The translations under genes were made by a program, and so were the position numbers. The notes below the pieces were generated by a model that was not told the origin of the DNA, made no database searches, and saw nothing but the letters and a program-made list of their open reading frames with translations. DNA of 61,309 bases from Bacteroidota bacterium (GTDB lineage Bacteria > Bacteroidota > Ignavibacteria > UBA10030 > UBA8401): assembly GCA_030679145.1 (NCBI GenBank), contig JAUXTU010000066.1, forward strand, positions 1-61,309, read 5' to 3'. Below are positions 53,486 to 61,309 of the stretch, piece by piece; position 1 is the first letter of the stretch, and each line of letters starts with the position of its first letter.

Positions 53486-54715
53486 CTATCGTAGTGAGTC
53501 AATCTTCCGTTGAATGATCTTCTTGTCGTTCTCAGTTTTTGCCAAGGATAGCGCTTTGGTAAAATGCTCCATCGCTTTTTTGTTGTCAATTCCGCCGTAC
53601 AATTCCCCGAGAAGTGTATAATAGAAATGATTCCCAGTCAGATTCAGTTTTTCTGCTTCAACGATTGCTTTCTGTTTTCCATGGACTTTCGAAAATGCAT
53701 ACGTTCTGTTGAGCGCAGCAATAGGGGAATATTCCAACTGCAGTAAATGATTATAGAGCTGCAACACCGTTTCCCATTTTTCCACCGTGTCCGATTGTTG
53801 TGTGCCCCAGTATGCAATGGAGGCTTGCAGATGGTACGATGAAAGTCTGTTTCCGGTCGATGCGTTGTGCAAAAAATATCCTCCTTTGCTGATCAATTCT
53901 GCATTCCACAAGATTGTATCCTGATCGTGATATAAAATGATCTCGCCATTCTGATCGATCCGCGCATCGAACCGCGATGCATGAAAACACATCAGCGCAA
54001 GCAGTGCATTTGTTTGTGGTGTGTCGGTCTGTTTGTGTTCAACAAGCATTGTGCAGAGGCGCATTGCTTCAAAGCAAAGATCTTTTCGAAGCGTTGCATT
54101 TGAACTTGTAGAATAATATCCTTCACTGAACAACAGATAGATTGTTTTTAAAACGCTCTCTAATCGTTGATCGATTTCTGAAGGAGAAGGAAATTCGATT
54201 GCGATCTTTTCTTCACGGAGTTTTTCTTTGGCTCGTGCGAGACGTTTATTGATCGTCTCCTTGTTTGTGAGGAATGCATCGGCAATTTCTTCAATGCCGA
54301 ATCCGCACAGAATGCGGAGAGATAATCCAATTTGCGCTTCGGGAGAAAGGGAAGGATGGGAGAGCGCAAACATCATTTGCAGCTGACTGTCGTTGATGTT
54401 GTCCGGAGAGAGATCGATGTATATTTCGTGAACGCCGGAAGAATCGTTGAGCAATTCGGGGGCAATGGTATTTTTAAAAAGCAGATCGCGCTGCAGATGA
54501 TTCTTTGCTTTGTTCTTTGCCACCGTGTAGAGCCACGCAACAGGATTATCCGGAACTCCTTTGTATCCCCACGTCTGCGCCGCGGTCAGGAATGTATCGC
54601 TCGCAAGATCTTCGGCAGTTTCAATGTGATCAAATCCGAAATGACGGCAGAGGACGGATACGATCTTTCTGTATTCTGTTCTAAAGAGATGCGGTAAAAG
54701 CTTGTCGTTTGCCAT
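53486..54715 (-). CDS. RNA polymerase sigma factor, ECF42-like with C-terminal DUF6596/TPR-like extension
   Basis: 409 residues, twice the size of an ordinary ECF factor. Sigma2 region: YRKIVSVLCRHFGFDHIETAEDLASDTFLTAAQTW..NPVAWLYTVAKNKAKNHLQR. Sigma4 HTH: ILCGFGIEEIADAFLTNKETINKRLARAKEKLR. The C-terminal ~220 residues are helical (YLLFSEGYYSTSS, RLCTMLVEHKQTDTPQTNALLALMCFHASR, AALNRTYAF), the extension typical of ECF42. Such factors are usually coupled to DGPF/YCII proteins rather than anti-sigma factors, and one lies at 56583 on the same strand. Confidence 0.9.
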   Translation of the reverse strand: MANDKLLPHLFRTEYRKIVSVLCRHFGFDHIETAEDLASDTFLTAAQTWGYKGVPDNPVAWLYTVAKNKAKNHLQRDLLFKNTIAPELLNDSSGVHEIYIDLSPDNINDSQLQMMFALSHPSLSPEAQIGLSLRILCGFGIEEIADAFLTNKETINKRLARAKEKLREEKIAIEFPSPSEIDQRLESVLKTIYLLFSEGYYSTSSNATLRKDLCFEAMRLCTMLVEHKQTDTPQTNALLALMCFHASRFDARIDQNGEIILYHDQDTILWNAELISKGGYFLHNASTGNRLSSYHLQASIAYWGTQQSDTVEKWETVLQLYNHLLQLEYSPIAALNRTYAFSKVHGKQKAIVEAEKLNLTGNHFYYTLLGELYGGIDNKKAMEHFTKALSLAKTENDKKIIQRKIDSLR

Positions 54716-55982: not shown

Positions 55983-56411
55983 TCAGCCATCCTGCACCGG
56001 TTTTTTATTGTGCCATATGCTTAGAACAACCGCCATGAACACCATTTTCATCAGCCAGTCTCCTGCATGAACTGCACCAAGCTGCCACGCCATATTATCC
56101 CACAGTATTGCCCCTGCCATCCCGACGGCATGAAATGCAAGCCACAACAGAAGGATCAGTTTGACGGCGCTTTTCCACTGAAGAAGATGAAGCCGGGTAA
56201 TTAACAGCGCCAGTACATACGAAACAATAAGTTCACGAAGCGGCGCGAACATCATTGTCCATTTCGGAAATGTTGAAACATCTGCGCTTCGATAGTTCAT
56301 CCAAATTGATCCGAAGAGCATCGGACTGTACCATAATCCGCTGAGTGCAAAAGCGATAAACCCTGTAACGATTACCGCCGTATAATTTATTGGTAGAGGT
56401 TTAGTATTCAT
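55983..56411 (-). CDS. DUF1761 membrane protein
   Basis: 142 residues with four transmembrane helices (YTAVIVTGFIAFALSGLWYSPMLFG, LIVSYVLALLITRLH, AVKLILLLWLAFHAVGMAGAILWD, WLMKMVFMAVVLSIWH). The YSPMLFG.W motif and length match DUF1761, function unknown. It lies between WD40 and the YCII gene on the same strand. Confidence 0.82.
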   Translation of the reverse strand: MNTKPLPINYTAVIVTGFIAFALSGLWYSPMLFGSIWMNYRSADVSTFPKWTMMFAPLRELIVSYVLALLITRLHLLQWKSAVKLILLLWLAFHAVGMAGAILWDNMAWQLGAVHAGDWLMKMVFMAVVLSIWHNKKPVQDG

Positions 56412-56427: not shown

Positions 56428-56585
56428 TAGAAGCGGTCTCAAAATGAATTTTATTTGTCATTCCGACACTGAACGAAGTGAAGTGGAGGAATCTCGATTT
56501 TATTATTGAAGTTAAAAACAAGATTTCTCTCCCGCTAAAGCGGGATCGAAATGACAATGATTAGGTATTTTTGAAACCGCTTCTA
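56428..56585. mobile_element. TA-flanked MITE-like element (158 bp)
   Basis: The terminal inverted repeats TAGAAGCGGTCTCAAAA (from 56428) and TTTTGAAACCGCTTCTA (to 56585) match over ~17 bp with one mismatch, bounded by TA as in Tc1/mariner (IS630) insertions. A second nested inverted pair is TTGTCATTCCGA..CGAAATGACAA. There is no coding capacity, so it would be non-autonomous. Its right end supplies the TAG stop of the YCII gene. Confidence 0.7.
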
Positions 56586-56945
56586 ATGAATCCCGTCTCC
56601 CTTGGCAATTCTCCGCACTTCAACGCTGTTTCCTTCGCCCTGCAAAACGGGAGAGCCTTTTGCAAATTCCACCGCTTCATCAATGGATGATGCTTTCACT
56701 ACAATATATCCGCCGAGAGTCTCTTTGATCTCGCCGAACGGTCCGTTCGTGACGACTGGTTTGGAATTTTTTGTCCGCACAACGCGCGCATCGGCAAACG
56801 GCAGACCGTTCCCCGCAACGAATTTATTCTGCGCCGCGATCCCGCCGATCCAGTCCATTGTCTGTTTCATCCAGATCTGGATCTGTTCCGGCGATGCCAC
56901 CGCATTGCCGTCCTGGTGTCTGAATATCAACATGTATTCTTCCAT
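56583..56945 (-). CDS. YCII-related (DGPF-type) protein, probable ECF42 partner
   Basis: 120 residues. The YCII/DGPF domain is complete: MEEYMLIFRHQDGNAVASPEQ, VVTNGPFGEIKETLGGYIVVKASSIDEAVEFAKGSP and VEVRRIA. NGPF replaces the usual DGPF. These proteins sit in operons with ECF42 sigma factors and are thought to sense or process a small molecule. The stop TAG lies exactly in the right end of the MITE-like element, so insertion may have set or truncated the C-terminus. Confidence 0.9.
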   Translation of the reverse strand: MEEYMLIFRHQDGNAVASPEQIQIWMKQTMDWIGGIAAQNKFVAGNGLPFADARVVRTKNSKPVVTNGPFGEIKETLGGYIVVKASSIDEAVEFAKGSPVLQGEGNSVEVRRIAKGDGIH

Positions 56946-57040: not shown

Positions 57041-57119
57041 CGCTCCCAAACTCTGTTTGGGAGCGAACGTCAAGCAGAGCTTGTAAAAACAAACGTTCCC
57101 AATCGGGAGATTGGGAACG
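57041..57119 (-). terminator. Pair of terminator-like hairpins, one of the CATTCCCAATC family
   Basis: CGTTCCCAATC (57094) pairs with GATTGGGAACG (to 57119) with loop GGGA; on the minus strand TTTGTTTTTAC follows. A second, CGCTCCCAAAC/GTTTGGGAGCG (57041-57065), lies further on. Together they sit just behind the small gene ending at 57123. The same hairpin type ends the genes at 57684 and 58913. Confidence 0.75.
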
Positions 57120-57122
57120 AGA

Positions 57123-57317
57123 TTACTTCTTACCGGAATTCCTTACGTTGTACGTTTTCCAAAATCCGGTCTTAACGTTATTAGTGAACGCGGTGCTGCC
57201 GTTTGGTTTTGTTATGTTCGGATGATTGTGTTTCCACCAGTCGGATTGTTTACCGGGTGTGGCGGCACCGGAGAGAAAAGAGCCGCTCTTGCGTGGTTGT
57301 TCATTGTGGGTTTTCAT
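57123..57317 (-). CDS. Small basic protein, possible gene
   Basis: 64 residues (MKTHNEQPRKSGSFLSGAATPGK start). It is basic, polar and Gly/Asn/Lys-rich, with WWKHNHPNITKPNG in the middle and no hydrophobic core. Support: AAGGTGA 6 nt before ATG 57317, and a terminator hairpin directly after the stop. No family is recognised. It could be an RNA-binding or envelope peptide, or spurious. Confidence 0.45.
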   Translation of the reverse strand: MKTHNEQPRKSGSFLSGAATPGKQSDWWKHNHPNITKPNGSTAFTNNVKTGFWKTYNVRNSGKK

Positions 57318-57352: not shown

Positions 57353-57660
57353 GAAAAAGTACAGACATTTCGTTTGGGAATCAAGAGCCGAAAGACGATG
57401 TCTGACGGCTTGCCCGCCTTCTTTTGCCTAAGGCATCACTTCGTGATTGGTGGGCGTTTTTCACCTGTCCGCCATGTTTTTTGGCGGAACGTCTGACATC
57501 TGGCGTAGACCAGCGTAAAACACTAAAGGAAAACTTGACCCCGCAAAACATCAGACATTGAAAACCATGTCAGATGTTATCCACCGTCCGACACTCAGCA
57601 TTGGCTTGGTGAAAGCAGAGCGTTTAAAATAAACATTCCCAATCAAAGATTGGGAATGAG
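57353..57660. repeat. Composite intergenic repeat, copy 2 (longest)
   Basis: Blocks in order: GAAAAAGTACAGACATTTCG, TCAAGAGCCG, GTCTGACGGCTTGCCCGCC, a GGTGGGCG hairpin, TTTTTCACCTGTCCGCCATG..GGCGGAACGTCTGACATC, then AAAACATCAGACATTGAAAA and CAGCATTGGCTTGG, and a final CATTCCCAATC/GATTGGGAATG hairpin (57634-57658). On the minus strand this hairpin is followed by TTTATTTTAAA and acts as terminator for the gene ending at 57684. A 36-bp stretch (57503-57538) is absent from copy 1. Confidence 0.85.
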
Positions 57661-57683
57661 ATGAAAACAGTGTTGAAACGGGG

Positions 57684-61085: not shown

Positions 61086-61309
61086 AATTTATTAAGCTGG
61101 CTACTATCCTGAGCAAGTGACGGGAATAATAAATAGAGGCATCTGAAAAATCTCGCATCAATGTCATTGCGGGCATAATAGTCAAAAAGTGTTGCTAAAA
61201 TCACTGTAAGTTGTTCTTTGAAATAGCGTTATTGGTAGAAAACTCCAACAAGGTGTAGAATCGTGACGAAAAAAACATTGTGCTCGATGTAGTTCATCAG
61301 ATGTCAAAC
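61086..61309. other. Non-coding right edge
   Basis: 224 bp upstream of the oxidoreductase gene up to the window end. I see no convincing gene; only short frames overlap. The promoter of the Old Yellow Enzyme gene probably lies here, and a CCTGAGCAAGTGACGGGAATA fragment recalls the REP-like repeats elsewhere. Confidence 0.35.

Follow-up and report, generated by a model that had tools for sequence, protein, structure and literature searches.

MITEs derived from insertion sequences of the IS5 family have been described in Porphyromonas gingivalis, where, according to the part of the paper available, they are short, occur in several copies and carry terminal repeats that match or nearly match those of full-length IS5-family elements; that text contains 0 occurrences of 'stop codon' (PMC4596501). 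In Coxiella burnetii, QMITE1 and QMITE2 are located at the 3' ends of genes, and some of them provide nothing but a stop codon, as in ubiB and CBU_2020; in addition, the palindrome of QMITE2 is described in the accessible sections as the target of an insertion sequence, IS1111 (PMC5896051). The third system is RUP of Streptococcus pneumoniae, an element of 107 bp with a TA target for which mobilisation in trans by IS630-Spn1, an insertion sequence with matching ends, has been proposed (PMC2229807, available in part).

The element described here shares features with each of these systems: shortness, several copies and IS5-type terminal repeats with the P. gingivalis MITEs, the position at 3' ends and the supply of a stop codon with QMITE1 and QMITE2, a hairpin targeted by an insertion sequence with QMITE2, and the TA target and an insertion sequence with matching ends as proposed mobiliser with RUP. 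As far as the available parts of those papers go, it also differs from all of them. The P. gingivalis MITEs have another terminal sequence and their matching insertion sequences reside in genomes of the same species, and the BrickBuilt elements found there show irregular duplications (PMC4596501). QMITE1 and QMITE2 are flanked by direct repeats of variable sequence (2–3 nt and 7–11 nt, respectively), C-terminal extensions are described for them (PMC5896051), and the insertion sequence that targets the hairpins is IS1249/IS256-like in our case. RUP is associated with IS630 (PMC2229807), whereas the ends found here accompany IS5-family transposases. No paper on this particular element was found among those listed in searches of the open-licence literature. 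It is, in relation to these systems, an IS5-family MITE of a kind already known, with a neat insertion rule, and MITEs that supply stop codons are known as well.

In the window, i.e. the whole analysed stretch of 61,309 nucleotides, the element is located between two minus-strand genes, for a YCII-domain and a DUF1761 protein (Table 1), and reads TAGAAGCGGTCTCAAAATG...TATTTTTGAAACCGCTTCTA. Its terminal arms, TAGAAGCGGTCTCAAAA (56428-56444) and TTTTGAAACCGCTTCTA (56569-56585, direct reading), are 17 bp long, differ from each other by one mismatch and are bounded by TA, in agreement with the initial annotation, which had also described the middle as non-coding with a nested inverted repeat. Indeed, 56428-56585 contains no reading frame that reaches 50 aa, and two inner hairpins in opposite orientation were found there. 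When the 16-mer AGAAGCGGTYTCAAAA was searched in the window with up to three mismatches, three matches were obtained compared to 2.08 expected by chance, and the matches without any mismatch are the two arms of the element. Folded as single-stranded RNA, the 158 bases reach -56.2 kcal/mol compared to a mean of -30.1 for shuffled sequences (z = -7.57), and none of 200 shuffles folded equally well. Scans of the window gave 0 matches to Rfam and 0 tRNA or tmRNA genes.

Table 1. Features of the window around the element, and insertion sequences from other genomes that carry the same ends together with a transposase.
Feature	Position or locus	Strand	Length	Remark
YCII-domain gene (Pfam PF03795)	56583..56945	-	120 aa	same C-terminal end as two homologues that lack the element
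YCII stop codon TAG	56583..56585	-		TA plus first G of the element; read as 56585-56583
DUF1761 gene (PF08570)	55983..56411	-		downstream of YCII; ATG 15 bases past the YCII stop once the element is removed
Sigma factor with DUF6596	53486-54715			'ECF42' is the label of the initial annotation
Complete MITE copy	56428..56585	.	158 bp	TA of each side included
Left end	56428..56446	+		TA and terminal inverted repeat; 2 mismatches to TAGAAGNNNTCTCAAAAAT
Right end	56567..56585	-		TA and terminal inverted repeat; 1 mismatch to TAGAAGNNNTCTCAAAAAT
Inner hairpin 1	about 56457..56496	+		GTC-ATTCC...GGAAT-CTCG
Inner hairpin 2	about 56519..56555	-		GTC-ATTTC...GAAAT-CTTG, exchangeable tip CCCGCTTTAGCGGG
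Transposase-bearing IS	L290		861 bp	the G017 element, one locus
Transposase-bearing IS	L295		832 bp	Pyrinomonadaceae; left end has lost TA
Transposase-bearing IS	L230		842 bp	Deltaproteobacteria
Transposase-bearing IS	L256		878 bp	Cyclobacteriaceae
Transposase-bearing IS	L210		875 bp	Sediminibacterium
Transposase-bearing IS	L214		898 bp	Bacteroidota

The genome shows that the element is a multicopy one. In the 3.83-Mb draft, the 158-mer gave at least 44 BLAST matches at E <= 0.001 (40 of the 97 first-look candidates were scored), the end pattern TAGAAGNNNTCTCAAAAAT with up to two mismatches was found 57 times compared to 16 times for the reversed control pattern, and 21 copies of 131–225 bp have two recognisable ends; the lack of further copies, which would have spoken against a mobile element, was therefore not observed. 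Fifteen copies with a common interior could be aligned with a mean column identity of 67%. A consensus of the element had matches in 33 of 60 related genomes, a list that includes the genome of the window, and many of these matches cover a hairpin core of 26–29 bases only. Being multicopy and short, with terminal inverted repeats and without a transposase, the element has the properties by which MITEs are defined.

Its parentage is indicated by complete insertion sequences with the same ends. G017, which belongs to the same family, contains an element of 861 bp (G017:C205:6474-7334) that matches the 16 fixed positions of TAGAAGNNNTCTCAAAAAT with 0 mismatches at both ends and encodes its transposase in two frames. 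Both halves of this transposase pass the NCBIfam model NF033580 (transpos_IS5_3) with 115.9 and 110.4 bits at a cut-off of 110, and its Pfam domains are DUF4096 and DDE_Tnp_1. As the last codons and the stop, TAT TTT TGA, extend into the right end, this end is integral to the insertion sequence rather than to a surrounding MITE. When the genome_contigs collection was scanned with TAGAAGNCATCTCAAAAAT, at least 115 stretches with an exact match were obtained, some single matches among which may be due to chance, and their record titles name Bacteroidetes, Deltaproteobacteria, Desulfobacterales, Chloroflexi, Acidobacteria, Spirochaetes, Betaproteobacteria and others. Among the matches listed for these 115 stretches, 60 have a short end pair (<=400 bp) and 12 an end pair of more than 400 bp, six of which contain a transposase (Table 1).

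Two further candidates were discarded. The 1217-bp end pair L154 in G010, considered as an insertion sequence, consists of two separate MITEs, 217 and 143 bp long, on either side of a regulator-like frame (by eye), and the 401-bp pair L229, which has both transposase tails and was considered as a half-way form, is uninformative because of the stretch of N between them.

Loci found by protein similarity instead of the pattern were also scanned for the ends. An end with up to three mismatches was present in five of the eight loci with at least 41% identity (L178, L179, L180, L296 and L298) and in none of the ten below this value, a line which was drawn after the data had been seen. L296, obtained by the protein search without the pattern, is a complete element of 846 bp with both ends, and a scan of L177 (57%), L297 (54%) and L299 (41%) revealed no recognisable end. 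Outside these two sets, L349 (60%) has a left end with two mismatches and L344 (30%) one with eight; L306 and L311 were left out of the scoring as they gave no BLAST match. We conclude from these comparisons that the ends are those of a single clade within the IS5-family transposases. In seven of the nine distinct loci with a measurable gap, the two transposase frames are separated by 32 nt, which fits a -1 shift; the gaps of the other two, both distant relatives, are 42 and 84 nt. We take the parent subgroup to be IS427-like, and both the frameshift and the TA duplication known from IS427 are presumably those of the parent group. The MITE agrees with the IS5 family as defined by NF033580 in its ends and its YTAR-like target, the two-frame transposase being that of the presumed parent, and differs from it in lacking a transposase and in its length of 131–225 bp in this genome. 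Apart from the last few bases, the interior of the MITE and the insertion sequences have no coding remnant in common.

In the window's own draft genome (G000, 123 contigs) 0 matches to the transposase or to NF033580 and no match to the IS630 domain DDE_3 (PF13358) were obtained. The MITE copies of this genome therefore appear to be orphaned, and a collapsed autonomous copy may be missing from a draft in 123 contigs. A MITE need not have an autonomous partner in the same genome. As no autonomous copy was found in the window's genome, we infer mobilisation in this lineage rather than observe it: a transposase of the IS5_3-type group, once resident or supplied from elsewhere, would have acted on the ends of the copies and inserted them at AYTART with duplication of the TA.

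This consensus, AYTART, was derived from the flanks of 85 of 109 elements, the 24 without TA at both sides having been dropped. Outside the TA, position -1 is C (0.45) or T (0.38) and position -2 is A (0.63). A YTAR-like site is the target of the IS5 group. For the identification of empty sites, the joined flanks of 21 own copies and of four copies from G017 and G009 were searched in nine relatives, and six own copies (C57, C49, C9, C15, C71 and C103) gave a match spanning the junction. For C57 and C49, both MITEs, G001 has a clean empty site with a single TA, with no such case for an insertion sequence. The junction of C9 could be aligned in G001, where the TA lacks one base, that of C15 is conserved in G003 on the gene side only, and those of C71 and C103 align poorly, the flanks of C71 in G001 being parted by unrelated sequence. 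The joined flanks of the other 15 own copies, the window copy included, gave no junction-spanning match in the nine relatives.

These results bear directly on the origin proposed in the initial annotation, a MITE of the Tc1/mariner-IS630 group with the TA as its classic target duplication. This proposal would agree with the TA at both sides of 15 of the 21 two-ended own copies and with the single TA of the two clean empty sites. However, the target consensus reaches beyond the TA, no PF13358 match was found in the genome, and the same ends flank IS5-family (NF033580) transposases in six distinct insertion sequences found by the pattern as well as in loci found by the protein alone. We regard an IS630 origin as extremely improbable. 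An IS5-family insertion sequence as the source, with the element as its non-autonomous miniature derivative (MITE), is, on the other hand, highly probable.

At the locus itself, the initial annotation had correctly recognised that the right-hand TA together with the following G is the stop codon of the YCII gene. The sigma factor is not adjacent to the element or to the YCII gene, as the DUF1761 gene and a frame of 344 aa with WD40-like repeats (by eye) are located in between. It had further been suggested that the insertion shortened YCII or set its end, a view to which the stop codon made by the end of the element lends some weight. Against this, the two closest homologues, from G010 (78% identity) and G008 (77%), terminate at the same last residue without any element, with DGVH or DGIH directly before the stop (TGA and TAA, respectively), and joining the flanks without the element yields ATT CAT TAG, i.e. 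again a TAG. The C-terminus is therefore not unusually short, homologues with the same C-terminus and without inverted-repeat ends do exist, and shortening is very improbable. As judged from these alignments, the YCII protein is most probably not shortened; the element would have fallen into its stop codon, with a new stop arising in the same place. The comparison shows that the YCII stop is restored by the element and that a hairpin-rich spacer has been placed between tandem genes which are otherwise 15 bases apart. A search for DUF1761 in the relatives gave, besides the window's own gene, only matches of 17–50% identity, and for this reason no orthologous YCII-DUF1761 site was available among the loci.

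The same arrangement recurs in other copies. In a well-preserved element each end consists of TA followed by G, so that a gene entering in phase 0 stops at TAG, and insertion at the TA of either a TAA or a TAG stop codon yields a TAG whichever end faces the gene. For the counts, 102 distinct short elements were used (67 from exact-end-pattern loci, 19 from this genome and 16 from relatives; C15 was left out because one end has four mismatches). Upstream frames were counted if they began at a start codon or extended past the edge of the locus. They meet the element in phase 0, 1 and 2 in 23, 3 and 1 cases at a minimum of 100 codons and in 17, 0 and 0 cases at a minimum of 150 codons; 23 of 27 in phase 0 compared to one third corresponds to a binomial p of 4e-8. 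When the element is removed, these 23 codons read TAG (8), TAA (5), TAC (3), TAT (1) or other (6), the last being cases whose far end has lost the TA. As TAC and TAT encode tyrosine, the insertion may have truncated the gene in at least four of the 23 cases.

Outside genes, 10 of 62 copies are located at a stop codon, compared to 8.3% of intergenic YTAR sites (p = 0.03) and to 4.6% of all TA sites (p = 0.0005); for this comparison 23 of the 102 elements were dropped and the 17 inside called frames set aside, and the crude gene caller used missed the YCII copy. The excess over intergenic YTAR sites is modest, and much of the effect can therefore come from target choice and the loss of harmful insertions. 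Insertion is not always harmless: 17 of the 102 elements are located inside called frames, and C49, which splits an apparent signal-peptide start (by eye) that is intact in G001, is a counter-example. Two other copies illustrate the reconstructed stop. At C15, DNA polymerase I (PF00476) ends with GKDWLEAH both here, with the TAG of the element, and in G003, with TAA. C25 (L054) provides a TAG for each of two convergent genes, a PEMT/ICMT-like and a PD-(D/E)XK one, which are left with TAG and TAA upon its removal.

Landing in a TAA or TAG stop would leave the protein unchanged, the YCII copy being one such case, and this is why copies would be tolerated at stop codons. We therefore propose, tentatively and at somewhat less than even odds, that IS5-like elements and MITEs bearing such ends follow an insertion rule by which stop codons are safe landing places: YTAA and YTAG stops satisfy AYTART, and ends starting with G rebuild TAG in either orientation, even for two convergent genes.

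The hairpins allow for two other views of the element. One is that only the inner palindrome pair is the unit that moves, similar to a REPIN mobilised by a REP-associated Y1 transposase, with the TA-bounded outer repeats as a secondary shell. Hairpins of the GTCATTCCGA type without recognisable outer ends do occur in this genome (L020, L022, L025 and L029), many relatives have the 26–29-base hairpin matches, and the full copy C6 is without hairpin 1. The outer ends, however, are the part common to complete insertion sequences and to elements of differing interior, and 21 copies are delimited by TA and the terminal repeats, which makes the palindrome pair an unlikely mobile unit. The other view is that the element is kept for its hairpins, as a two-way terminator or a stabiliser of 3'-end RNA, or for a promoter part that it contributes to the next gene. 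This would account for the very stable fold, the T-rich stretch after each hairpin on its own strand, the coincidence of element ends with gene ends, the replacement of tips by other palindromes with the tip pairs kept in most copies, and a promoter-like match (TTGAGA, 18, AAAAAT; 9/12) at 56442-56413 on the minus strand, from the left end towards DUF1761. A scan for intrinsic terminators, defined by a G+C-rich stem with a T run at once after it, found no such site inside 56428-56585, however, and six promoter-like hits compared to 2.9 in shuffled sequences are weak evidence. The tip pairs, moreover, change together as whole palindromes and hence count as few events, not as many independent compensations. 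We consider retention for such effects on expression rather doubtful, though less so than the palindrome pair as mobile unit; the reading as an IS5-derived MITE defined by its outer ends is the one we prefer.

The exchange of hairpin tips between copies deserves mention in its own right. Whole palindromes, e.g. CCCGCTAAAGCGGG, GATGCTTCGCATC and GTCCCAAAGGGAC, replace each other, as seen in columns 129-152 of alignment A1 (L001, L004, L005, L010 and L014), seemingly independent of the end variant. In addition, the left and right ends co-vary at end positions 7 and 9 in the 102-element set, whose end-conservation figures are inflated by its bias towards pattern-found loci: the two ends of one element are alike in 78 of 102 elements at position 7 (shuffled mean 59.5, maximum 68) and in 86 of 102 at position 9 (shuffled mean 78.0, maximum 84).

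A second insertion sequence was encountered at the borders of the contig. It is 1061 bp long with the ends GGGCATAATAGTCA (L138:1-1061), and its transposase is IS1249/IS256-like, with scores below the curated cut-offs. It caps both ends of the window contig (1-131 and 61171-61309) and at least 15 other contig ends of this genome, some of them as variants of 86–88%. As it follows MITE ends at contig edges, it was first taken for the autonomous partner of the MITE. This was rejected: its own ends are located inside the GTCATT hairpins of MITE copies, which together with the IS1249/IS256-like transposase marks it as a parasite of the MITE and not its parent. In nine of the 11 distinct ends seen it lies directly after GTCAT and three further bases, and thus targets the MITE hairpins. 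Positions 132-259 and 61134-61170 of the window are pieces of a second MITE subfamily with TAGAGRCATCTGAAAAAT ends, cut by this insertion sequence, and similar ends were also found in L138, L146 and L147. Upstream of YCII, another repeat, CGTTCCCAATC...GATTGGGAACGAGAT, is present in two copies about 540 bp apart (57072-57123 and 57613-57662), the first of which carries a terminator-like hit.

Taken for the family, the parentage of a widespread repeat is corrected by this analysis and would now be tied to one transposase group, and the hairpins of the MITE also serve as target for a second insertion sequence. If the proposed rule for stop codons is true, such elements could spread through gene ends in many phyla while leaving the proteins unchanged and carrying RNA hairpins to the 3' ends, which would provide a simple and testable reason why they collect at stop codons.
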